Assembly: GCA_902547535.1 (NCBI GenBank) | Contig: CACCOB010000002.1 | Location: forward strand, 1 to 64,000 | DNA length: 64,000 nucleotides | Reading direction: 5' to 3' | Origin: an uncultured Pelagibacteraceae bacterium | GTDB taxonomy: Bacteria; Pseudomonadota; Alphaproteobacteria; Pelagibacterales; Pelagibacteraceae | Part shown: positions 3,475 through 28,618 of the stretch, piece by piece | How the letters are laid out: every line of letters begins with the position of its first letter | Position numbering within the stretch: position 1 is the first letter of the stretch | Made by a program: the position numbers and the translations under genes | The notes under the pieces: generated by a model | What the model saw: only the letters and a program-made list of their open reading frames with translations | Told to the model about the DNA's origin: nothing | Databases searched by the model: none

Positions 3475-5703
3475 ATGAAAATAATTCATATTATCTCAGG
3501 ACTTGGACCAGGTGGTGCTCAAGTAGTTTTAAAAAGAATTCTTGAGGCTGATAATAGTAATTCCCACACTGTTATTTCAATGATGGACAAGGGAATATAT
3601 GGGGAAAAAATCCAGAATTTAAATGTACCAATTTATGAACTCGGATTTCCAAAGGGAAAAATAAAGTTAAAGGGATTAATAAAACTTTATAAAATTTTAA
3701 AAAAAGAAAAGCCAGATGTTGTTCAAACTTGGATGTATCATGCTGACCTTGTGGGAGGAATAGTTGCAAGATTAGCTGGAATAAAAAATATATTTTGGAA
3801 TTTAAGAAATTCGTCCTTTACTATTAAGACTCAGTCTTTGAATACCATGATTGTTGCAAAATTGTGTGCGTTATTATCAAAAATTATACCAAAAAAAATA
3901 ATTATAAATTCTTATGAGGGAAAAAACTTTCACTATCAATTAGGCTATCAAAGTAAAATGTATGTCATAAATAATGGATATACTAACAAAGATTATATTG
4001 ATAAGAAAAAATCTTTATCAACTTTTTCTTTTGGAATGCTTGCTAGGTGGGACCCGCAGAAAGACTATAACAACTTATTAAGTTCAATAGCTTACTTTAA
4101 ATCGCTAGATGAATTTAAAGAAATAAGTAAAAAAATCAAAGTAAATTTTGTTTTAGCTGGTCACAGAATAAATGAAGATAACAGCAAATTGAGGAAAATT
4201 ATTAATGACCTTAAAATAAACGATTTGGTCAAATTAGTTGGTGATTATAATGAAGAGGATATAGATGATTTTTATAAATCTATTGATGCTCATGTTTTAT
4301 CAAGTAGAAGTGAAGGTTTTCCAAATGTAATAGCCGAGTCCATGAGAGCAGGTGTGCCAAATATATCAACAAAAGTTGGAGATGCTGAAAAAATAATTAA
4401 TGATACAGGCTGGATTGTAGAGCCAAGAAATAAAATAAAGTTAGCAAATGCATTTATTGAAGCTTTAGAAATGTATAAAAATAATGAAAGTGAATGGGAA
4501 AAATTAAAAATAAAGTCCAATAAAAGAATAAATCTGGAATACAATATTTCAAAGATGATTGATAGTTTCAATCAACTTTGGAATAGTTCAAATAAAAATA
4601 AAGGTTTTAAAATTTTTCATATTATTTCTGGACTAGGATCAGGAGGAGCACAAACTATATTAGCCAGATTAGTTAAAAATGAAAAAAAATTTTCACACAC
4701 AATTATATCTTTTATAGATTTTGGCGACTATGAAAAATTCTTTAAAAAAGAGGGTATAAAATTAATTAAATTAAATATGAAAAAAGGAAAGTTTTCATTA
4801 AAAGGTTTTTTAACTTTATGTAAAATTATAAAAGAGGAAAGACCTGATATAATTCAAACCTGGATGTATCATGCTGATTTTTTAGGAGGATTGGTAGGAA
4901 GATTTTATAAAATTGAAAAAATTTTTTGGAATATAAGAAATTCAAATTTAAAGAGAGAATGGGCATCAATCTCTACAATAGTTATATCTAGGATCTGCGC
5001 ATACCTATCTAATTCTATTCCTACTAAAATAATTAGTTGTTCAAAAAAATCAAAAGATGTTCATATTGAGTTTGGATATAAAGAGGAAAAGATAAGCATA
5101 ATTAATAATGGTTATGATACTTCTCAAATGATATTTAAAAATAAAAATCGTGATAAAATATTTAAAATAGGCATGTTAGCTAGGTGGGATCCTCAAAAAG
5201 ATTATTTAAATTTAGCTAAATCTTTAATTCATTTTAACAAATTAACAAAACGTAAATGGATAGTTTATCTAGCTGGTGATAAAATTGATAAAAATAATAA
5301 AAAATTATTAGAGATTTTTGAGCATAAAGAATTAAAAAATAATATAATCTATGATGGAATGATTTCTGATATAGCATCCTTTTTTGATAAAATAGATCTT
5401 CATATATTGTCCAGTGCTGGAAATGAAGGTTTCCCAAATGTTGTGGCTGAAGCAATGGGTTTTGGTGTACCATGTATATCAACAGATGTTGGAGACTCAA
5501 AATATATAATTGATAAGTATGGATGGCTAGTTCCAGTTAAATCACCAAAAGAACTAGCAAATAAAATTAATTTAGCCTCTGAAGAATATTTTTTGAATGA
5601 GTCTGAATGGGAAAATAGAAGATTTAATTCAAGAAACCACGTAACTTCTAAATTTACTTTAAATAACATGGTTAAAAAATATATAAATATTTGGGAAAGT
5701 TAA
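3475..5703 (+). CDS. Fused tandem GT4 glycosyltransferase (two complete GT-B units)
   Basis: The 742-residue protein is two GT4 enzymes in one frame. Residues 1 to about 370 and about 379 to 742 repeat the same landmarks in the same order: HIISGLG.GGAQ, QTWMYHAD, an N..RNS segment, NNGY, GMLARWDPQKDY, and EGFPNV in the donor-site E-x7-E region. The repeat unit is about 377 residues (about 1131 bp). Both halves keep these motifs, so neither looks dead by inspection. GT4 enzymes usually have 350-400 residues, so this is a real fusion rather than an oversized single enzyme. It may add two similar sugars successively. Its stop abuts the next gene directly. Confidence 0.9.
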   Translation: MKIIHIISGLGPGGAQVVLKRILEADNSNSHTVISMMDKGIYGEKIQNLNVPIYELGFPKGKIKLKGLIKLYKILKKEKPDVVQTWMYHADLVGGIVARLAGIKNIFWNLRNSSFTIKTQSLNTMIVAKLCALLSKIIPKKIIINSYEGKNFHYQLGYQSKMYVINNGYTNKDYIDKKKSLSTFSFGMLARWDPQKDYNNLLSSIAYFKSLDEFKEISKKIKVNFVLAGHRINEDNSKLRKIINDLKINDLVKLVGDYNEEDIDDFYKSIDAHVLSSRSEGFPNVIAESMRAGVPNISTKVGDAEKIINDTGWIVEPRNKIKLANAFIEALEMYKNNESEWEKLKIKSNKRINLEYNISKMIDSFNQLWNSSNKNKGFKIFHIISGLGSGGAQTILARLVKNEKKFSHTIISFIDFGDYEKFFKKEGIKLIKLNMKKGKFSLKGFLTLCKIIKEERPDIIQTWMYHADFLGGLVGRFYKIEKIFWNIRNSNLKREWASISTIVISRICAYLSNSIPTKIISCSKKSKDVHIEFGYKEEKISIINNGYDTSQMIFKNKNRDKIFKIGMLARWDPQKDYLNLAKSLIHFNKLTKRKWIVYLAGDKIDKNNKKLLEIFEHKELKNNIIYDGMISDIASFFDKIDLHILSSAGNEGFPNVVAEAMGFGVPCISTDVGDSKYIIDKYGWLVPVKSPKELANKINLASEEYFLNESEWENRRFNSRNHVTSKFTLNNMVKKYINIWES

Positions 5704-6801: not shown

Positions 6802-7842
6802 ATGATAAAAAATCAAATTTCTGAAAATTTTAATTTAATTGAGCCTCATATAATAATTTTAATCTTAATTCTTAATTTTATCATATTAGTTTATTTTAAA
6901 AAATTTGCTAATTTATTTAGTATTTATGACATGCCAAAAGAAAAGAGAAAAATTCATACTAAACCTATTCCGCTTATTGGTGGTATAATTATTTTATTAA
7001 ACATAATATTTTTTTATGCATTATTTTTTTCACTTGACTCAGGTGTCTTACTTAGTTTTGAAGGGGAAAGAAGTCTAATCAATCTGATCTTAATAGGAAC
7101 ATTAATATGTTTTTTTGGAGTTTATGACGATAAATATGGAATTTCACCTACTAATAAAATTCTGATTTTAACTTTATTAATTTATGTTTCTTTAGTTATT
7201 GATCCAAGCTTAATTATAAAATCGTTAAATTTTAACAACACATTTTTCATAAATATTGAACAATTTAGTATTTTCTTTACTATTTTGTGTTTCTTAATAT
7301 TTCTAAATACCTTTAATATGTTTGATGGTCTTAATGGTCAATCAGGATTTTATTCTATAGTAATTTTAATATTTATTTTAATAAAAAATTCAAATCTTTT
7401 TTCAATTTACCTTTTAATACCACTGGCTTTCTTTTTATATTTAAACTTAAGGAATAAAACATTCCTTGGGGATAATGGTTCTTATCTTTTATCTTATATT
7501 TTATCGTGTTTAATAATAAAGACTTATAACCATACGGGTACAGTTATGACAGTAGAAGAAATTTTTTTAATTTTATTTTATCCTGGTTTAGATTTAATCA
7601 GACTTTTTTTTTCTAGAACAACAAAAGGGAAGCATCCATTTTATCCAGACGACAATCATATTCATCATATTATCTTAAAAAAAACTAGGTCACAAAAAAA
7701 AGTACTATTAATTAATATTTTTTCAATAATACTACCAATTCTTTTGTATTTAATTATTGGAAATATTTATTTTGCTCTTTCAACTGTAACACTACTTTAT
7801 TTTATAAATATTATTTATTTTGGTAAAATAAAAAATGTATAA
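6802..7842 (+). CDS. WecA/MraY-family undecaprenyl-phosphate sugar-1-phosphate transferase
   Basis: This 346-residue polytopic protein carries the family landmarks in order: KIHTKPIPLIGG near residue 48, VYDDKYGISPTNK near residue 104 (DD motif), NTFNMFDGLNG near residue 168, FLGDNGSYLLSY near residue 222 and a histidine-rich DDNHIHHIIL near residue 282. Enzymes of this family transfer HexNAc-1-phosphate from UDP to undecaprenyl phosphate at the inner membrane, the first step of Wzy-dependent glycan synthesis. The gene is probably the initiating enzyme of the island's glycan. The sugar (GlcNAc or another HexNAc) cannot be assigned. Confidence 0.85.
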   Translation: MIKNQISENFNLIEPHIIILILILNFIILVYFKKFANLFSIYDMPKEKRKIHTKPIPLIGGIIILLNIIFFYALFFSLDSGVLLSFEGERSLINLILIGTLICFFGVYDDKYGISPTNKILILTLLIYVSLVIDPSLIIKSLNFNNTFFINIEQFSIFFTILCFLIFLNTFNMFDGLNGQSGFYSIVILIFILIKNSNLFSIYLLIPLAFFLYLNLRNKTFLGDNGSYLLSYILSCLIIKTYNHTGTVMTVEEIFLILFYPGLDLIRLFFSRTTKGKHPFYPDDNHIHHIILKKTRSQKKVLLINIFSIILPILLYLIIGNIYFALSTVTLLYFINIIYFGKIKNV

Positions 7843-8350
7843 AAAATTTGTTTTATTTTTAATATTACATGAGTTAATTTTTTTTATTTTATATTTAACA
7901 AAAAGAAATTTTTTTCCAGGCAATTATGTTTATTTAGAATTTTTAAATTTTTACTTAATATTGTTAATTCCTTTATTAGTAATTTTTATAATTTTGAAAA
8001 ATAAAAGAAAAAGAGAGGATTTACTTAATTTTTTTACCTCATCATTAATTGGTTTTTTATTAAATTATGCAATACTTATGACATTTGTAGTAAACGGTGA
8101 TAGATCTCCTTCAATGTATATTTTGACATCTATTAAAACAAGCAATGGCATTAGTTTTGAGGAAACAAGAGATAAAATGTACAATAATTTTTTTATTGAA
8201 AAAGAACAGTTCAAAAAAAGAATTGACGAGCAGTTACATTTAAAAAATGTAGAAAAAAAAAATAACAATTTATATATCACTAATAAAGGTGAAAGAGTTA
8301 TTAAAATATTTAAGTTTTTTAATTATTTTACAAATATAGAAAATTTTTAA
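7835..8350 (+). CDS. Membrane protein of unknown function with soluble C-terminal domain
   Basis: I do not recognise this 171-residue protein. About three hydrophobic segments span residues 1-95, followed by a charged segment with a possible winged-helix-like pattern: residues 125-160 read as a helix, a short NNLYITNKGERV turn and a hydrophobic helix, like the 'lT.kG..v' wing of small DNA-binding folds. It overlaps the WecA-like gene by 8 bp and precedes hisH by 17 bp, so it is probably in the same operon and works in glycan assembly. The wing resemblance is weak. Confidence 0.55.
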   Translation: MYKKFVLFLILHELIFFILYLTKRNFFPGNYVYLEFLNFYLILLIPLLVIFIILKNKRKREDLLNFFTSSLIGFLLNYAILMTFVVNGDRSPSMYILTSIKTSNGISFEETRDKMYNNFFIEKEQFKKRIDEQLHLKNVEKKNNNLYITNKGERVIKIFKFFNYFTNIENF

Positions 8351-8367
8351 TAATAATTTTAAATTTC

Positions 8368-8973
8368 ATGATTGGAATTATTGATACAGAAACAGGTAAT
8401 ATAAATTCAGTTTTCAATATTTTGAAAAGGACGAAAATAAAATCAATTATAACAAAAAAAATGGATGAACTTCTTGAGTGTGATAAAATTATACTACCTG
8501 GCGTTGGAAGATTTGATGCTTGCATGAGAAATTTGCAAAAGTATGAACTTGATAAAATAATTAAGCATTTAATAATTGAAAAAGAAAAAAAAATATTATG
8601 TATTTGTGTTGGTATGCAACTACTATTAAATTATAGTGAAGAAGGAGATTGTGAAGGATTAAAAATAATTGATGGTCATTGTACAAAGTTTTTAATAAGT
8701 CAGGTTAATAATATACCACATATTGGTTGGTCTCCTATTAAATCAAAAAATAGATTTTTAAATTATGACGGACATGAAAAATCAAGATTTTATTTTTGTC
8801 ATTCGTACTACCCTGTTATTAAAGAAAAAAATATTGATTTAATAAATACAAATTTCAATATTGAATTTTGTGCAGGTTTTATAAAAAAAAATATAGTAGG
8901 TGTACAATTCCATCCTGAGAAAAGTTTACAGAATGGTGCAGATTTTCTAAAAAATTTTGTTGAGAAATTCTGA
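8368..8973 (+). CDS. hisH: HisH-type glutamine amidotransferase for sugar amidation
   Basis: This 201-residue class I glutaminase has the nucleophile region CICVGMQLLL near residue 79 and the His-Glu pair in GVQFHPEKS near residue 178, completing a Cys-His-Glu triad. The N-terminal IIDTETGN matches the IDYGAGN-like start of HisH. In histidine synthesis HisH feeds ammonia to HisF. Here it is followed by a degenerate hisF and a WbpG-type amidotransferase, as in O-antigen loci of Pseudomonas aeruginosa (hisH2-hisF2-wbpG). I infer a role in making acetamidino or amide groups on a surface sugar, not in histidine synthesis. The stop overlaps the next start. Confidence 0.85.
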   Translation: MIGIIDTETGNINSVFNILKRTKIKSIITKKMDELLECDKIILPGVGRFDACMRNLQKYELDKIIKHLIIEKEKKILCICVGMQLLLNYSEEGDCEGLKIIDGHCTKFLISQVNNIPHIGWSPIKSKNRFLNYDGHEKSRFYFCHSYYPVIKEKNIDLINTNFNIEFCAGFIKKNIVGVQFHPEKSLQNGADFLKNFVEKF

Positions 8974-9746
8974 TGAAAAAAAAAAGAATTAGAGTAATTC
9001 CTTCTATATTAATTGAAAATAATATTATGATTAAAGGAAAAAATTTTAAAAATCACAAATATATTGGGGACATTTTTAATGCTGTAAGAATTTATAGTAA
9101 AAAAAACGCTCATGAGCTAATAATACTAGATAAATCAGCAAAAGAAAAAAATAATTATTTTGATGCAAATTTGCTCAAAAAAATATCTAGTGAAATATTC
9201 ATGCCCATTACAGTTGGTGGAAATATATCCACGGTAAAACAAGCAAAATTTCTCATAAATTCAGGTGCAGAAAAAATTTTTTTAAATTCAACAATAATAA
9301 ATAATTATGAGCTTATAAGGGATATATCAAATGAAATTGGAAGTCAGAGTGTGGTAGTTGGTGTTGATGTAATGAATAATGGTAAAGAATATGGGATTTT
9401 CTACGATAATGGAAAAAAAAAATATGAGAAACAATTAACTGATCATTTATATTCAATTGTATCAGCTGGTGCTGGAGAAATAGTATTAAATTCTATCTCA
9501 AGAGAAGGCACTAGGAGAGGATTTGATATAAACTTATATCAAAAAGTACATAATAAATTTGAGATACCCATAATTGCCAGTGGTGGAGCTAACTCATTTG
9601 ATAGTTTTTTAGAATTATTTGATCAGACATACATATCAGCTGCTGCATCATCAAGCATGTTTTGTTTGTTTGGTAATAATGATGCAGTTTTAATAAATTA
9701 TTTAAATCAAAATGAATTAATTGATTTAATCAATAGATATGAATAA
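8973..9746 (+). CDS. hisF: HisF-like partner for sugar amidation, lacking one cyclase catalytic Asp
   Basis: This 257-residue (beta-alpha)8 barrel begins RVIPSILIEN where true HisF has RIIPCLDV, so the first catalytic aspartate (Asp11 in Thermotoga HisF) is replaced. The second is kept in VVVGVDVMNNG near residue 130. Phosphate-binding loops are recognisable: TVGGNIST near residue 80 and IIASGGANS near residue 203. Loss of Asp11 is expected if the protein only channels ammonia from HisH to another acceptor. It is the HisF2 type associated with WbpG. It overlaps hisH by one base and the next gene by 8 bp. Confidence 0.85.
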   Translation: MKKKRIRVIPSILIENNIMIKGKNFKNHKYIGDIFNAVRIYSKKNAHELIILDKSAKEKNNYFDANLLKKISSEIFMPITVGGNISTVKQAKFLINSGAEKIFLNSTIINNYELIRDISNEIGSQSVVVGVDVMNNGKEYGIFYDNGKKKYEKQLTDHLYSIVSAGAGEIVLNSISREGTRRGFDINLYQKVHNKFEIPIIASGGANSFDSFLELFDQTYISAAASSSMFCLFGNNDAVLINYLNQNELIDLINRYE

Positions 9747-10677
9747 AAATTTAATCGTAAGATCTATTTTTTCTACATTACTACTAATAGTAATTTTAAT
9801 AGGAATTAAAAACTATATCACAAACCAAAATGAGACATTTAATTTTTTACTAAAAATCGATTTTAAATTTATAATATTTATACTTTTACTATCATTAAAT
9901 TATCTAATAATCGAAAGCTTTAATCAAAGAAAAATTATTCAGATATTTGCAAATCAAAAAGAAAAACTATTTATATGTTTTTTGATAATTAATTTTACAT
10001 ATTTGCTTAACACAATATTTAATTTTTTTGGAACATTTTTCAGATGCGTATATTTGAAAAAAAATTATAAAATAGATATCAAAGATTTTGTTTCTTTTAC
10101 ACTTTTACTTGCTTTACTTGAGTTGTTTGTTTTTATGGGATTAACTGTTATATTTAATATTGTATTTCAGGTTTTACAATTTAATGACTATCTTTTTATC
10201 TTAATGCTAATTTTATTTTTAATGTTATTTTTTTCACTATTGATAATTTATAATTTTAAAAAAATCACTATCGTACTTACTTTTTTAAATAAAAAAAATT
10301 TTTTATTTTTAAAAAACTTATTCATTAAGTATAATAAAAATCTTCCCTTTTTTTTTAAGCTTTTTTTTTATCAATATATTGTTCTTATGTGTATTTATTT
10401 TTCAGGATTTTATGAACTTAAGGGAATATTTAATATTGGATTTAGTAGTTTAGCATCGGCTATTACCTCGATTAGTTTTTTTTTTAATTTTACACCCTTA
10501 TCTATCGGAATTACAGAAACAATGTTGTACATCGGGACAAAATCTATGGAAATCAAATTTTCAGAAATAATTTTTCTTACTGGAATATTTAGAGTCTCAT
10601 TATTAATAATTTATTTAATTTTTGGAATTTTATCTATAATTATCCTTCAGAATAAAAAAAAGTATGATGAATTGTAA
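9739..10677 (+). CDS. Membrane protein of lysylphosphatidylglycerol-synthase TM / flippase-like family
   Basis: The 312-residue protein has about eight hydrophobic segments. Near residue 250 it has FTPLSIGITETML, which resembles the 'P.siGg.G..E' segment of the LPG_synthase_TM (UPF0104) family. A conserved-looking arginine in FGTFFRCVYLKKNY near residue 96 matches the family's G-E/x-x-R-x-x-x-L region. Some relatives of this fold move or modify isoprenoid- or phospholipid-linked molecules. It is embedded between hisF and the WbpG-like gene with overlaps of 8 and 14 bp, so it is part of that cassette. I infer a lipid-linked sugar transport or modification role; direct evidence is weak. Confidence 0.6.
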   Translation: MNKNLIVRSIFSTLLLIVILIGIKNYITNQNETFNFLLKIDFKFIIFILLLSLNYLIIESFNQRKIIQIFANQKEKLFICFLIINFTYLLNTIFNFFGTFFRCVYLKKNYKIDIKDFVSFTLLLALLELFVFMGLTVIFNIVFQVLQFNDYLFILMLILFLMLFFSLLIIYNFKKITIVLTFLNKKNFLFLKNLFIKYNKNLPFFFKLFFYQYIVLMCIYFSGFYELKGIFNIGFSSLASAITSISFFFNFTPLSIGITETMLYIGTKSMEIKFSEIIFLTGIFRVSLLIIYLIFGILSIIILQNKKKYDEL

Positions 10678-11794
10678 ATTTTGTTTAATGGATGAAACTG
10701 TTGGAAATCTAAAAATAGATAGTCAAGGTGAATGTAAGTATTGTAAGGCTCATAAAGAGATGGAAAAAGAATACCAATTAGGAGACAACTCTTTTGATAG
10801 ATTAAAAGAAATCGCTTCTAAAATAAAAAAAGAGGGAAAACACAAAAAATACGATTGTATATGTGGAGTAAGTGGAGGTAGAGATAGCTCTTATGCTTTA
10901 TATGTAACCAAAAAAATTTTAGGTTTAAGACCTTTAGCTGTACACTTTGATAATGGGTTTAATTCAGAAATATCAGTTAGCAATATTCACTCTATTTGCT
11001 CTAAAATGAATATCGATTTAGAAACTAAAGTAGCTGATTGGGAAACATTTAAAAATGTAACAAGATCGTTTTTCTTTGCTTCAGTACCAGACGTAGATAT
11101 AACAACCGATATTGGAATATTTAAAACTATGTACGAAATTGCCCATAGAGAAAAAATAAATTATGTATTTAATGGCCACTCTTTTAGAACAGAAGGTTTA
11201 GACCCCTTAGAGTGGACCTATATGGACGGTTTGTACATAAAAAGTATTTTCAGAAAGTATGGCAAAGGAAATTTGAAGAAATTTGATAATTTTACAATCA
11301 AAGATCTAATAAAGTATAAATTTTTAAGGAATATCAAAACTGTTTTACCACTAAACTTTATTGAATATGACAATGATAAAGTAATATCAACATTAAAAGA
11401 AAATTTTGACTGGAATTATTATGGATCCCATCATCATGAGTCTACTTTCACTAAGTTTTGTATCTCATATTATCTTCCAAAAAAATTTAATATAGATAGA
11501 AGAAAAACTGATTTATCTGCAATGATAAGATCAAAAAAAATAAAAATTGAAAAGGCGAGAGAATTGATAAGTAAAAAAGTTAAAATTGATGATGAGGAAA
11601 ATCTATTAGATTTTGTTTTAAATAAATTAGATATTTCCAAAAAAGAATTTGACGAAATATTAAAAAAAGAGAACAAAAATTTTAAAAATTTCTTTACTTA
11701 TTACGATATTTTAAAATACTTTAAATTTATCATTCATTTAATGACTAAAATAAAATTACTACCAAAGATATTATATTTAAAATATTTTTCATAA
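10664..11794 (+). CDS. WbpG/PseA-like N-acetyl sugar amidotransferase
   Basis: The 376-residue protein begins with CKFCLMDET and then CKYC, two Cys-x2-Cys pairs (residues 4-7 and about 25-28) that suggest a zinc knuckle. An ATP-pyrophosphatase P-loop follows: CGVSGGRDSSYALY near residue 66 (SGGxDS). This combination is typical of WbpG, PseA and related enzymes, which use ammonia to convert an N-acetyl group of a nucleotide sugar to an acetamidino group. NGHSFRTEGLDP near residue 170 is a further substrate-site segment. With the hisH and hisF genes just upstream, the full ammonia-relay set is present. The first codons overlap the upstream membrane gene by 14 bp. Confidence 0.88.
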   Translation: MMNCKFCLMDETVGNLKIDSQGECKYCKAHKEMEKEYQLGDNSFDRLKEIASKIKKEGKHKKYDCICGVSGGRDSSYALYVTKKILGLRPLAVHFDNGFNSEISVSNIHSICSKMNIDLETKVADWETFKNVTRSFFFASVPDVDITTDIGIFKTMYEIAHREKINYVFNGHSFRTEGLDPLEWTYMDGLYIKSIFRKYGKGNLKKFDNFTIKDLIKYKFLRNIKTVLPLNFIEYDNDKVISTLKENFDWNYYGSHHHESTFTKFCISYYLPKKFNIDRRKTDLSAMIRSKKIKIEKARELISKKVKIDDEENLLDFVLNKLDISKKEFDEILKKENKNFKNFFTYYDILKYFKFIIHLMTKIKLLPKILYLKYFS

Positions 11795-14222: not shown

Positions 14223-15317
14223 ATGAAAATATTAATCATATCAAATACTTTTTGGAGTATTTATAATTTTAGATCAAGTTTTATTAAAAAATTTATAGAA
14301 AGTAAGAATGAAGTTTTGGTTGCCTCTTTAAAAGATAAAAATGTAAAGAAATTAAAAAAAATTGGTTCGAAAATTCATTTTATTGATATTTTTTCTAAAA
14401 ATACAAATCCCTGGAAGGAAATTATTTTGTTATTTCAACTAAAAAATTTATTTAATGAGTATAAACCTGATGTAGTAATAAATTTTACTATCAAACCTAT
14501 TATTTATAGTAGTTTATTACTGAAAACAAAAAAAGTTAAAGTAATAAATACACTAGATGGTTTTGGACTTAGTCTAACAAAAAATTTTTTCTTTAAAAAA
14601 ATGATATTTTTTTTATTTAGAATATCTCAATCAAAAATTTTTAAATTTTATGCTGTGACAAATAATGATTATGAACTATTAAAAAAAAAAAATTTGATTC
14701 CTAGAAAAAAATTATCTTTAATTAATGGGACAGGAATAAATCTTAAACATTATAACTATTCAAAACCAAATAATAAAAAAAATACAGTATTTATATTTAT
14801 TGGACGCTTTTTACTCTTAAAGGGTATAAAGCTTTTTGTGGAAGCCTCAGGAATAGTTAAAAAAAAATTCAGAAATACAAGTTTTATTGCCATAGGTGAT
14901 TTTAAAGAGGATAATTATTCTATTTCTAAAAAGGAATTGGATTTATGGAAAAAAAATAAAGTAGTAAAATTTATTAAACCTAAAGATGATATAAGAAATT
15001 TAATAAATAAATCTGACTGCATGGTCCTTCCAACTACATATCCAGAGGGTATAAATAGATCTCTTTTAGAGAGTTTATCAATGGGAAGACCAGCTATTAC
15101 AAATAAGGTAGGTGGATGCAAGCAGATTATTAAGAATAATTTTAATGGTTATATTAAATTAATTAAGAATGAGAATGATCTAGCAAATATGATGATAAAA
15201 TTTCATAATTTAAACTATAAAAAAAAATTAAGGTTTTCTATAAACGGCAGAGAATTTGTTGAAAAAAATTTCAATGAAGTAAATATTATTAATAAATATT
15301 TGAAAGATTTTAGATGA
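14223..15317 (+). CDS. PglA-like GT4 glycosyltransferase
   Basis: The 364-residue enzyme starts ILIISNTFWSIYNFR and has INFTIKPIIYSS near residue 94 and INTLDGFG near residue 115. These match the 'fT.KP.iYg..a' and 'NtitGLG' motifs of PglA/WbpU-type enzymes that add HexNAc to undecaprenyl-diphosphate sugars. The donor site is present: VFIFIGRFLLLKGI near residue 193 and PEGINRSLLESLSMGRPAI near residue 275 (E-x7-E). It probably adds the second sugar after the WecA-like step. It is the first + strand gene after a divergent 67-bp gap, so a promoter is likely at 14156-14222. It overlaps the next gene by 4 bp. Confidence 0.85.
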   Translation: MKILIISNTFWSIYNFRSSFIKKFIESKNEVLVASLKDKNVKKLKKIGSKIHFIDIFSKNTNPWKEIILLFQLKNLFNEYKPDVVINFTIKPIIYSSLLLKTKKVKVINTLDGFGLSLTKNFFFKKMIFFLFRISQSKIFKFYAVTNNDYELLKKKNLIPRKKLSLINGTGINLKHYNYSKPNNKKNTVFIFIGRFLLLKGIKLFVEASGIVKKKFRNTSFIAIGDFKEDNYSISKKELDLWKKNKVVKFIKPKDDIRNLINKSDCMVLPTTYPEGINRSLLESLSMGRPAITNKVGGCKQIIKNNFNGYIKLIKNENDLANMMIKFHNLNYKKKLRFSINGREFVEKNFNEVNIINKYLKDFR

Positions 15318-16633
15318 GGCTTAAAAAAATAAAAATAGGAGTAATTGGTCTTGGATATGTTGGGTTACCACTGTTTGTAAAATTTGCACAAAAATATGAC
15401 ACTTTAGGTTTTGATATAAACAAAAAAAAAATTTTAGATTTAAAAAAAAATAAAGATATAACTTTACAATTAAAAAAGAAAGAATTTAGATATATATCAA
15501 ATAAAATTACTTTTAATATTGAAAATCTAAAAGATTGCAATATTTTAATCGTAACAGTCCCTACACCAGTTAATAAAAATAAAGATCCTGATTTAAATCC
15601 ACTAAAAAATGCTTGTTTGTTAATTTCAAAAATTATCAAACATAAAGATATCGTAATTTTTGAATCAACAAGTTTTCCTGGCACCACAGAGGAAATATGC
15701 GCTAAAATAATTGAGAAAAAATCTTTAATTAATTATGTAAAAAATGATGTTTACGAAAAAGTACTTAAAAAAAAAAATAAAGAATACTTTTATTGTGGTT
15801 ACTCCCCAGAAAGAATTAATCCAGGAGATGGAACTCACACATTAGAAAATATAGTAAAAGTTGTTTCAGCTAGTACTAAAAAAACTTTAAATTTTGTTAA
15901 TAATTTATATTTATCAATCATAAGAGCAGGTACCTACAAAGCTGAAAGTATTAAAGTTGCAGAAGCAGCCAAGATAATTGAAAATACACAAAGAGATATA
16001 AATATAGCTTTATTTAATGAACTATCGATAATATTTAACAAACTTAATTTAAATACAAAGTCAATTATTGATGCTGCATCAACTAAATGGAATTTTCATA
16101 AGTATGAGCCAGGACTCGTAGGTGGTCACTGCATTAGTACAGATCCTTACTATTTAACATATATTTCTAAAAAAAATAAATATTCTCCAAAAATAATTTT
16201 GTCTGGAAGAAAATTAAATGATGGTATGTCAAAGTGGGTGCTAAAAAATATTTTAAGGATTTTAAATAAAAAAACACCTAAAAAAAAAATAAAGGTATTG
16301 ATGTTAGGTTTAACATTTAAAGAAAATTGTCCCGACACACGAAACTCACAATTAATTCAACTCTCAGAAATGTTAATAAAAAAAAACATGAATATTTCTG
16401 TATTTGATCCATATATTAAGACTAAATCTGATGGTGAAATTAATAAAAAAATTGTCTTACTTAGAAATCTTCCCAAACAAAAAGGGAAATTTGATATTAT
16501 AATTATTGGAATAAAGCATAATTTATTCAAAAAAATTAAAGTAAATTATTTAAATAAAATTAAAAAAAAAGATGGTTTCATTATTGATTTAAAAAATCTT
16601 ATACCTAAAAGATTTTCAGATTTTCAACTATGA
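15314..16633 (+). CDS. UDP-N-acetylhexosamine 6-dehydrogenase (TviB/WbpA family)
   Basis: This 439-residue UDP-sugar dehydrogenase has IGVIGLGYVGLPL near residue 8 (NAD-binding GxGxxG), VPTPVN near residue 84, STSFPGTTEE near residue 117 and the catalytic-cysteine segment GGHCISTDPYYL near residue 271. The Q-like DITLQL segment and overall form resemble the TviB/VipA subgroup, which oxidises UDP-HexNAc to the uronic acid. It would supply a HexNAc-uronic acid, the kind of sugar that WbpG systems further amidate in P. aeruginosa. GLTFKENCPDTRNS near residue 334 marks the C-terminal UDP-binding domain. Confidence 0.88.
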   Translation: MRLKKIKIGVIGLGYVGLPLFVKFAQKYDTLGFDINKKKILDLKKNKDITLQLKKKEFRYISNKITFNIENLKDCNILIVTVPTPVNKNKDPDLNPLKNACLLISKIIKHKDIVIFESTSFPGTTEEICAKIIEKKSLINYVKNDVYEKVLKKKNKEYFYCGYSPERINPGDGTHTLENIVKVVSASTKKTLNFVNNLYLSIIRAGTYKAESIKVAEAAKIIENTQRDINIALFNELSIIFNKLNLNTKSIIDAASTKWNFHKYEPGLVGGHCISTDPYYLTYISKKNKYSPKIILSGRKLNDGMSKWVLKNILRILNKKTPKKKIKVLMLGLTFKENCPDTRNSQLIQLSEMLIKKNMNISVFDPYIKTKSDGEINKKIVLLRNLPKQKGKFDIIIIGIKHNLFKKIKVNYLNKIKKKDGFIIDLKNLIPKRFSDFQL

Positions 16634-28502: not shown

Positions 28503-28618
28503 GCCTGGTGATTATTGCGAAAGGGTAATACCCGATCCCATTCCGAACTCGGAAGTCAAGCCTTTCTGCGCCGATGGTACTTTGTCTTAAGACATGGAAG
28601 AGTAGGACGTTGCCAGGC
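28503..28618 (+). rRNA. rrf: 5S ribosomal RNA
   Basis: The 116-nt segment starts GCCTGGTG and ends TTGCCAGGC, so its ends pair to form helix I. Inside are CCCGATCCCATTCCGAACTCGG (loop B/helix III region at 28531-28552) and GCGCCGATGGTACT (28569-28582), which are conserved in bacterial 5S rRNA. GAGTAGGACGTTGCC at the 3' side is also standard. No 16S or 23S sequence is found anywhere in the window, so this 5S gene is detached from the rest of the rRNA operon. rpmJ follows after 8 nt. End points are set from the terminal helix and may be off by one or two bases. Confidence 0.95.

Follow-up and report, generated by a model that had tools for sequence, protein, structure and literature searches.

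A probable glycan-amidation operon in a SAR11 bacterium encodes a HisF homologue that has lost a cyclase aspartate

Introduction

Gene sets that combine a WbuX-type N-acetyl sugar amidotransferase with homologues of HisH and HisF are known from several organisms. In Escherichia coli O145, WbuX, WbuY (HisH) and WbuZ (HisF2) serve the sugar FucNAm, the AglX-AglY-AglZ system of Methanococcus maripaludis is the archaeal counterpart for amidation of an N-glycan, and PseA-HisH-HisF sets stand at nonulosonate loci. The role of HisH and HisF in sugar amidation is unsettled, since WbuX-type enzymes might use free ammonium. Notes on the WbuZ family hold that the two histidine-pathway homologues are of use under ammonium scarcity, a condition that would match the open ocean. 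Here we analysed a stretch of 64,000 nucleotides from an uncultured Pelagibacteraceae bacterium of the SAR11 order (GCA_902547535.1; 1.28 Mb in 10 contigs, 88% complete), hereafter the window, which comprises bases 1-64000 of contig CACCOB010000002.1 (C2, 354,850 bases) and contains a four-gene operon for a HisH-type glutaminase, a HisF homologue, an integral membrane protein and a WbuX-type amidotransferase. Judged from sequence comparison, this operon is very probably a glycan-amidation cassette, in which a cyclase-dead HisF would supply ammonia for an acetamidino sugar on a surface polysaccharide and the substitution D98E would ease HisH activation. A gene set of this kind is known; the cassette is a divergent case with an extra membrane protein, and its value lies in the residue pattern of HisF.

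Comparison with described systems

Residue numbers below follow Thermotoga HisF and HisH, unless given as window residues; the reference sequences used for this were checked for length or landmark residues, and the alignment of the window protein to solved HisF sequences agrees. The E. coli O145 locus has the same three proteins, and its WbuZ, located beside fnlA-wbjC-wecB, carries D11L and D98E and keeps D130, as does the window HisF. It differs in these neighbours, none of which is in the window genome, in the gene order WbuX-HisH-HisF, and in having no MprF-like gene in between. With respect to AglX-AglY-AglZ, AglZ/HisF2 is the best-scoring model for the window HisF, and the archaeal UDP-GlcNAc 3-dehydrogenase has a homologue in sibling cassettes, but the archaeal system acts on an N-glycan rather than a bacterial surface polysaccharide and lacks the membrane protein. 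The PseA-type sets likewise unite HisH and HisF with a WbuX relative; however, this relative belongs to another WbuX clade, and their HisF has lost D130 instead of D11, or has lost D11 but kept D98. Pseudomonas aeruginosa O5 has the same functional trio as WbpG-HisH2-HisF2 for ManNAc3NAmA (PMC10607449), but equivalents of wbpI, wbpB and wbpD were not found in the window genome. Imidazole glycerol phosphate synthase (HisH-HisF) has the fold, the gate residues and the HisH triad in common with the window pair, whereas the window HisF has lost D11, carries D98E and coexists with a separate true copy. In the literature collection searched, we found nothing on SAR11 N-acetyl sugar amidotransferases or AglX/Y/Z, and nothing on WbuZ/WbuY residues.

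The operon and its HisF homologue

The open reading frames (ORFs) of the four genes overlap or abut in one tight operon: HisH ends and HisF starts at 8973, HisF ends at 9746 and the membrane-protein gene starts at 9739, and the latter ends at 10677 with WbuX starting at 10664. An initial annotation, made from the sequence alone, had placed HisH, HisF and WbuX in one operon at exactly these ORF positions; all three are present, and the fourth, interleaved ORF had been overlooked. The identical four genes in identical order recur in the SAR11 loci L044/L146, L041/L147, L037/L148, L149 and L150 (HisH cut off in L150) with varying flanking genes, and the closest relatives of the cassette among named records are uncultured Pelagibacteraceae, which bears out the SAR11 assignment. 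The operon lies in a glycan island (1 to ~28.4 kb; G+C content 22% versus 30% further right) corresponding to HVR2, the largest hypervariable region of SAR11, which is flanked by the 5S and 23S genes and codes for surface properties (PMC2217521). Contig C3 ends in the remaining half of the island, past the 16S gene (5 kb masked there).

The HisH homologue scores 194 bits with TIGR01855 (cut-off 105.4) and has the catalytic Cys-His-Glu triad, the oxyanion-strand motif PGVG, and equivalents of N12 and K181. WbuX scores 235.3 bits with TIGR03573 (cut-off 203.2) and has four zinc-ribbon cysteines (4, 7, 24 and 27; CxxC...CxxC) and a PP-loop, SGGRDS, at 70-75. The top PDB match of its AlphaFold model (predicted local distance difference test, pLDDT, 93) is LpNASAT, the only N-acetyl sugar amidotransferase with a solved structure (8WEX; E 6e-13, template-modelling score, TM, 0.63), with which it shares the fold, the tetracysteine and the PP-loop at 17% identity, with another host and sugar. 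No phage homologue of WbuX was found in our search. In the nearest relative, L044/L146 (AG-899-N21), WbuX has a frameshift at ~2650-2760, in an A-rich stretch of the N-terminal zinc-ribbon part, which may be either an assembly error or the mark of a decayed gene.

In the cyclase reaction, D11 acts as general acid and D130 as general base (PMC11350729). In the window HisF, RVIPSILI aligns on RIIPCLDV of the solved HisF, placing Leu13 at D11, and VVVGVD aligns on VVVAID, so that D130 is kept as Asp132; the loss of the first catalytic Asp with retention of the second, read by the initial annotation from the letters alone, is thereby borne out. The ammonia gate is intact (window residues R7, E48, K101 and E169). 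With D11 replaced by Leu, the protein falls outside the true histidine HisF, which have both D11 and D130; its setting is that of AglZ/HisF2/WbuZ, with HisH and WbuX adjacent, a sugar locus around them and a second, true HisF elsewhere. Its model scores are 254 for AglZ/HisF2 (NF038364, cut-off 310), 236 for WbuZ (TIGR03572, cut-off 299.7) and 179 for hisF (TIGR00735, cut-off 294.6), and the SAR11 sibling HisF also score under the equivalog cut-offs (NF038364 283-286, TIGR03572 247-251). Lys54 and Lys57 of the window HisF sit at I52 and S55, which contact substrate analogues in true HisF; Lys occupies position 52 in 2/88 HisF of class A (defined below), so the former ligand pocket appears to have changed further in the window protein.

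Loss of one cyclase aspartate beside WbuX

HisF homologues near WbuX were gathered from 40 SAR11 stretches, 38 other Pseudomonadota stretches, named plasmids and 80 genome-collection loci. WbuX was present within 7 kb in 116 cases, of which 115 could be scored, the row from L150 being incomplete. None of the 115 retained both D11 and D130, while both aspartates were present in 39/39 true HisF, a set that leans canonical because 30 of its members were chosen for having the highest HisF-model scores. The loss is thus wider than the initial annotation had seen and is the rule for HisF beside WbuX. It occurs in two versions. Class A has lost D11, mostly to Leu, and keeps D130 in 84/88 proteins; class B has Asp, rarely Glu, at position 11 and Glu or Gln at position 130. 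Some HisF near WbuX have lost both (for example in L045, L058, L064 and L074). Throughout the 113 proteins of classes A and B the gate residues R5, E46 and E167 never vary, nor do the glycines G177 and G203, and K99 is kept, with Arg in three. Among the HisH partners (n=106), C84 is universal, H178 and E180 are missing only from one gapped row, a single partner departs at N12, and most keep K181. The parts that make and pass on ammonia have therefore been retained while the cyclase was broken.

In a tree of 92 HisF rows built without columns 11 and 130, class A forms one side of a branch (support 98), and class B forms a clade (support 100) together with L144, a row with both aspartates and no WbuX. 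The window HisF falls in a 40-row class A clade (support 100) that includes L143, annotated AglZ/HisF2, and the SAR11 siblings form a set with support 99. A quick tree set the D130-lost HisF beside true HisF, but constraining true HisF to one clade gave a better likelihood (approximately unbiased test, p-AU 0.93), and we dropped the claim that the D11-lost and D130-lost HisF arose separately from histidine HisF. Since the L/D and D/E states interconvert only by regaining an Asp, the losses of D11 and D130 would be separate by parsimony, and independence is limited to these two residue losses. The L144 protein, from Azospirillum lipoferum plasmid AZO_p6 (7992-8768), adjoins HisH and an acylneuraminate cytidylyltransferase, with WbuX absent nearby.

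D98E and possible activation of the glutaminase

The WbuX tree is deeply split (support 100) into clade I and clade II, the latter with the window protein. Glu is found at HisF position 98 in 60/63 class A proteins paired with clade II WbuX, including Glu100 of the window, and in 0/25 class A proteins with clade I WbuX, 0/25 of class B and 0/39 true HisF. D98E probably arose once, on the branch leading to this clade, and is a clade signature. Position 98 lies where HisF contacts HisH, and the engineered fD98E variant of Thermotoga HisFH showed a full shift to the active conformation and higher glutamine turnover (PMC8115485). By analogy, D98E may have a similar effect in the sugar-amidation HisF.

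Proposed pathway and its alternatives

From the gene content, the residue states, the trees and the genome's separate his cluster, we infer the chemistry, the path of ammonia from HisF to WbuX, the substrate and the effect of D98E. HisH would hydrolyse glutamine, and the HisF homologue, no longer a histidine cyclase, would pass the ammonia on by means of the HisH interface and barrel gate that it keeps. WbuX with ATP would activate the N-acetyl carbonyl of a nucleotide- or lipid-linked N-acetylhexosamine (HexNAc) and add ammonia, and the resulting acetamidino sugar would enter the surface polysaccharide built by the HVR2 locus. In this lineage, D98E would ease HisH activation and replace the control exerted by the lost histidine substrate. 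The substrate is most likely a uridine diphosphate (UDP)-HexNAc, perhaps a 3-acetamido sugar. The constant loss of one cyclase aspartate, the conserved gate and glutaminase and the D98E of one lineage point to a dedicated ammonia supply. In a transposon screen of a freshwater Sphingomonas for altered colony morphology, 12 insertions fell in wbuX, 10 in hisF2 and 9 in hisH, and sugar dehydrogenase, aminotransferase, acetyltransferase and MviM-type (Gfo/Idh) dehydrogenase genes of the same cluster were also hit (PMC11340318). All three genes thus matter in that alphaproteobacterium.

Could the pair instead be HisH and HisF of histidine synthesis that diverged and were mis-scored? Only HisH scores above the cut-off of its histidine-pathway model, but the window HisF is without the essential cyclase acid, and the genome has its own hisB-hisH-hisA-hisF in a row (C3:59.5-62.2 kb), with both aspartates in that HisF. 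Histidine synthesis is therefore not the job of the operon, and this explanation retains almost no probability. The initial annotation had reasoned that the pair would have to serve histidine synthesis if the genome held no second, true hisHF, and the separate cluster, together with the curated models, supports its proposal of ammonia-supplied sugar amidation. Another explanation is that the HisF homologue still catalyses a reaction, for example on a sugar, through its kept Asp and phosphate-binding glycines. It would account for the near-constant D130 of class A and the invariant G177 and G203; yet the opposite Asp is lost in the lineage that does the same job, which indicates that neither Asp is needed, and the proteins without either aspartate speak against it as well. 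We regard such a reaction as improbable.

Several points count against our reading of the operon as an ammonia-fed amidation cassette. The roles of HisH, HisF and WbuX are predictions from sequence and models, and the sugar-precursor pathway was not found in the window genome. The scores of the window HisF lie below the AglZ/HisF2 and WbuZ equivalog cut-offs. WbuX and HisF may not touch, and ammonia could diffuse between them. Since D98E is probably one event, the 60/63 proteins are not 60 independent observations. Extended to amidation loci in general, the reading would be that HisF became cyclase-dead ammonia conduits and glutaminase activators by a knock-out of either D11 or D130, and that the UDP-sugar lineage fixed the HisH-hyperactivating D98E, which freed glutamine hydrolysis from the histidine substrate; we would put the chances of this wider model at about even. 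Residues 11, 98 and 130 separate amidation HisF from true HisF where curated models fail for the divergent SAR11 copies, and the pattern makes the role of HisF testable by mutating single residues in an enzyme pair that has been studied in depth. Of 297 sampled genomes of the SAR11 order, 82 have WbuX homologues that pass the curated cut-off; some of the sea's most abundant cells may thus commonly bear acetamidino sugars.

The putative substrate sugar

Sugar labels were assigned to the WbuX rows by a crude rule, from neighbour genes up to 10 kb away, and the same rule supplied the labels of the window and its siblings. Clade I received 27 nonulosonate and 4 UDP-HexNAc labels and clade II 17 UDP-HexNAc and 3 nonulosonate labels; in the 34-row set around the window (support 97) there were 12 UDP-HexNAc labels and none for nonulosonate. 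The cassette adjoins Gfo/Idh, DegT aminotransferase and hexapeptide acetyltransferase genes in L037/L148 and L149, and the first two in L041/L147, where the best model of the L147 Gfo/Idh is UDP-GlcNAc 3-dehydrogenase, under the cut-off. By homology, these neighbours follow the logic of a 3-acetamido sugar. In the window genome, 88% complete and with its contig ending inside the glycan locus, we found no FnlC/WecB/WbpI (no PF02350), no close WbpB homologue (Gfo/Idh matches all distant) and no close WbpD homologue (acetyltransferase matches weak, the best in the GlmU-side stretch), and thus neither the 3-acetamido-sugar set nor the ManNAc3NAmA pathway (WbpA-B-E-D-I with WbpG). The initial annotation had named missing precursor genes as evidence against amidation, and its concern is justified in part; however, the contig breaks off immediately left of the window, within HVR2, so absent genes are not to be taken as truly missing. 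A full-length DegT at C3:274 kb, tried as the aminotransferase of the precursor route, is PseC-like and was set aside.

For the sugar of the window, a UDP-HexNAc type is likely, a uronic acid possible and a nonulosonate less likely. The initial annotation had favoured an amidinated HexNAc-uronic acid made with the TviB-like dehydrogenase at 15314. For a hexuronic acid of the ManNAc3NAmA type, as in P. aeruginosa O5, this enzyme would oxidise UDP-GlcNAc ahead of 3-amination and acetylation of the WbpB/E/D type and, finally, amidination. Both here and in L044/L146, the only two places where it accompanies the cassette, the dehydrogenase shares the island with it, and sibling cassettes adjoin WbpB/E/D-like genes; but it has no match in the sibling genomes G293, G288 and G694 and a weak one in G695 (75 bits), so that the cassette is independent of that enzyme and the proposed link is weak. 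With the WbpI-type epimerase and close WbpB and WbpD also unaccounted for, we consider the hexuronic acid unlikely, if still a serious candidate. A uronic acid bearing an amidine would moreover be zwitterionic, not net positive as had been proposed. A nonulosonic acid of the pseudaminic or legionaminic type, on which WbuX would act like PseA, is suggested by a PseC/PseG/NeuB-like cluster in the island's other half (L102, C3:270-276 kb; proteins under curated cut-offs). Against it, the window WbuX belongs to clade II, far (support 100) from the clade with nearly all nonulosonate loci (27/31 labelled rows), its 34-row set contains none, and the window HisF falls in the matching clade; the chance of such a substrate appears small.

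Clade II WbuX also occurs without HisH or HisF within the examined stretch, in L168, L172-L175, L184 (Larkinella) and several Omnitrophota loci, where the amidotransferase may work without the pair or with a distant one. In L113, L105, L064 and L062, a complete amidation set of one class stands beside a complete set of another, so that one glycan may contain two amidinated sugars.

The membrane protein and neighbouring features

The protein between HisF and WbuX scores just under the PF03706 cut-off of 33.4 bits (32.7; 31.3 in the nearest relative), while four of five siblings are over it (34.8-50.1). Its AlphaFold model (pLDDT 72) matches the MprF flippase region weakly (TM 0.56-0.62 but E 0.28), and the MprF assignment is tentative. 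Homologues were seen in SAR11 cassette loci only and were not found in the other WbuX loci examined.

Table 1. Positions of the operon genes, key HisF codons and nearby features in the window
Feature	Position	Strand	Basis
WecA-like polyprenyl-phosphate HexNAc-1-phosphate transferase	6802..7842	+	PF00953 63 bits
Small protein just 5' of HisH, no Pfam match	7835..8350	+	Same-place homologue in nearest relative L044/L146
HisH-type glutaminase (WbuY/AglY role)	8368..8973	+	TIGR01855 over cut-off; residue table
HisF homologue, AglZ/HisF2/WbuZ clade	8973..9746	+	Models, alignment, tree
Codon of Leu13, at HisF D11 position	9009..9011	+	Alignment; coordinate from ORF start
Codon of Glu100, at HisF D98 position	9270..9272	+	Alignment
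Codon of Asp132, HisF D130 equivalent, kept	9366..9368	+	Alignment
MprF-flippase-region-like integral membrane protein	9739..10677	+	PF03706 similarity, predicted fold
WbuX/WbpG/AglX-type N-acetyl sugar amidotransferase	10664..11794	+	TIGR03573 over cut-off; AlphaFold model
TviB-like nucleotide-sugar dehydrogenase	15314..16633	+	Best model PRK15182 (TviB) 404 bits, cut-off 592; TIGR03026 335, over cut-off
5S rRNA, right border of glycan island (SAR11 HVR2)	28504..28618	+	Rfam RF00001, 93 bits

Homologues of the WecA-like transferase are also near the cassette in those siblings whose flanking sequence was examined. Further left in the island, a 742-residue protein (3475-5703) consists of two tandem GT4-type glycosyltransferase units.

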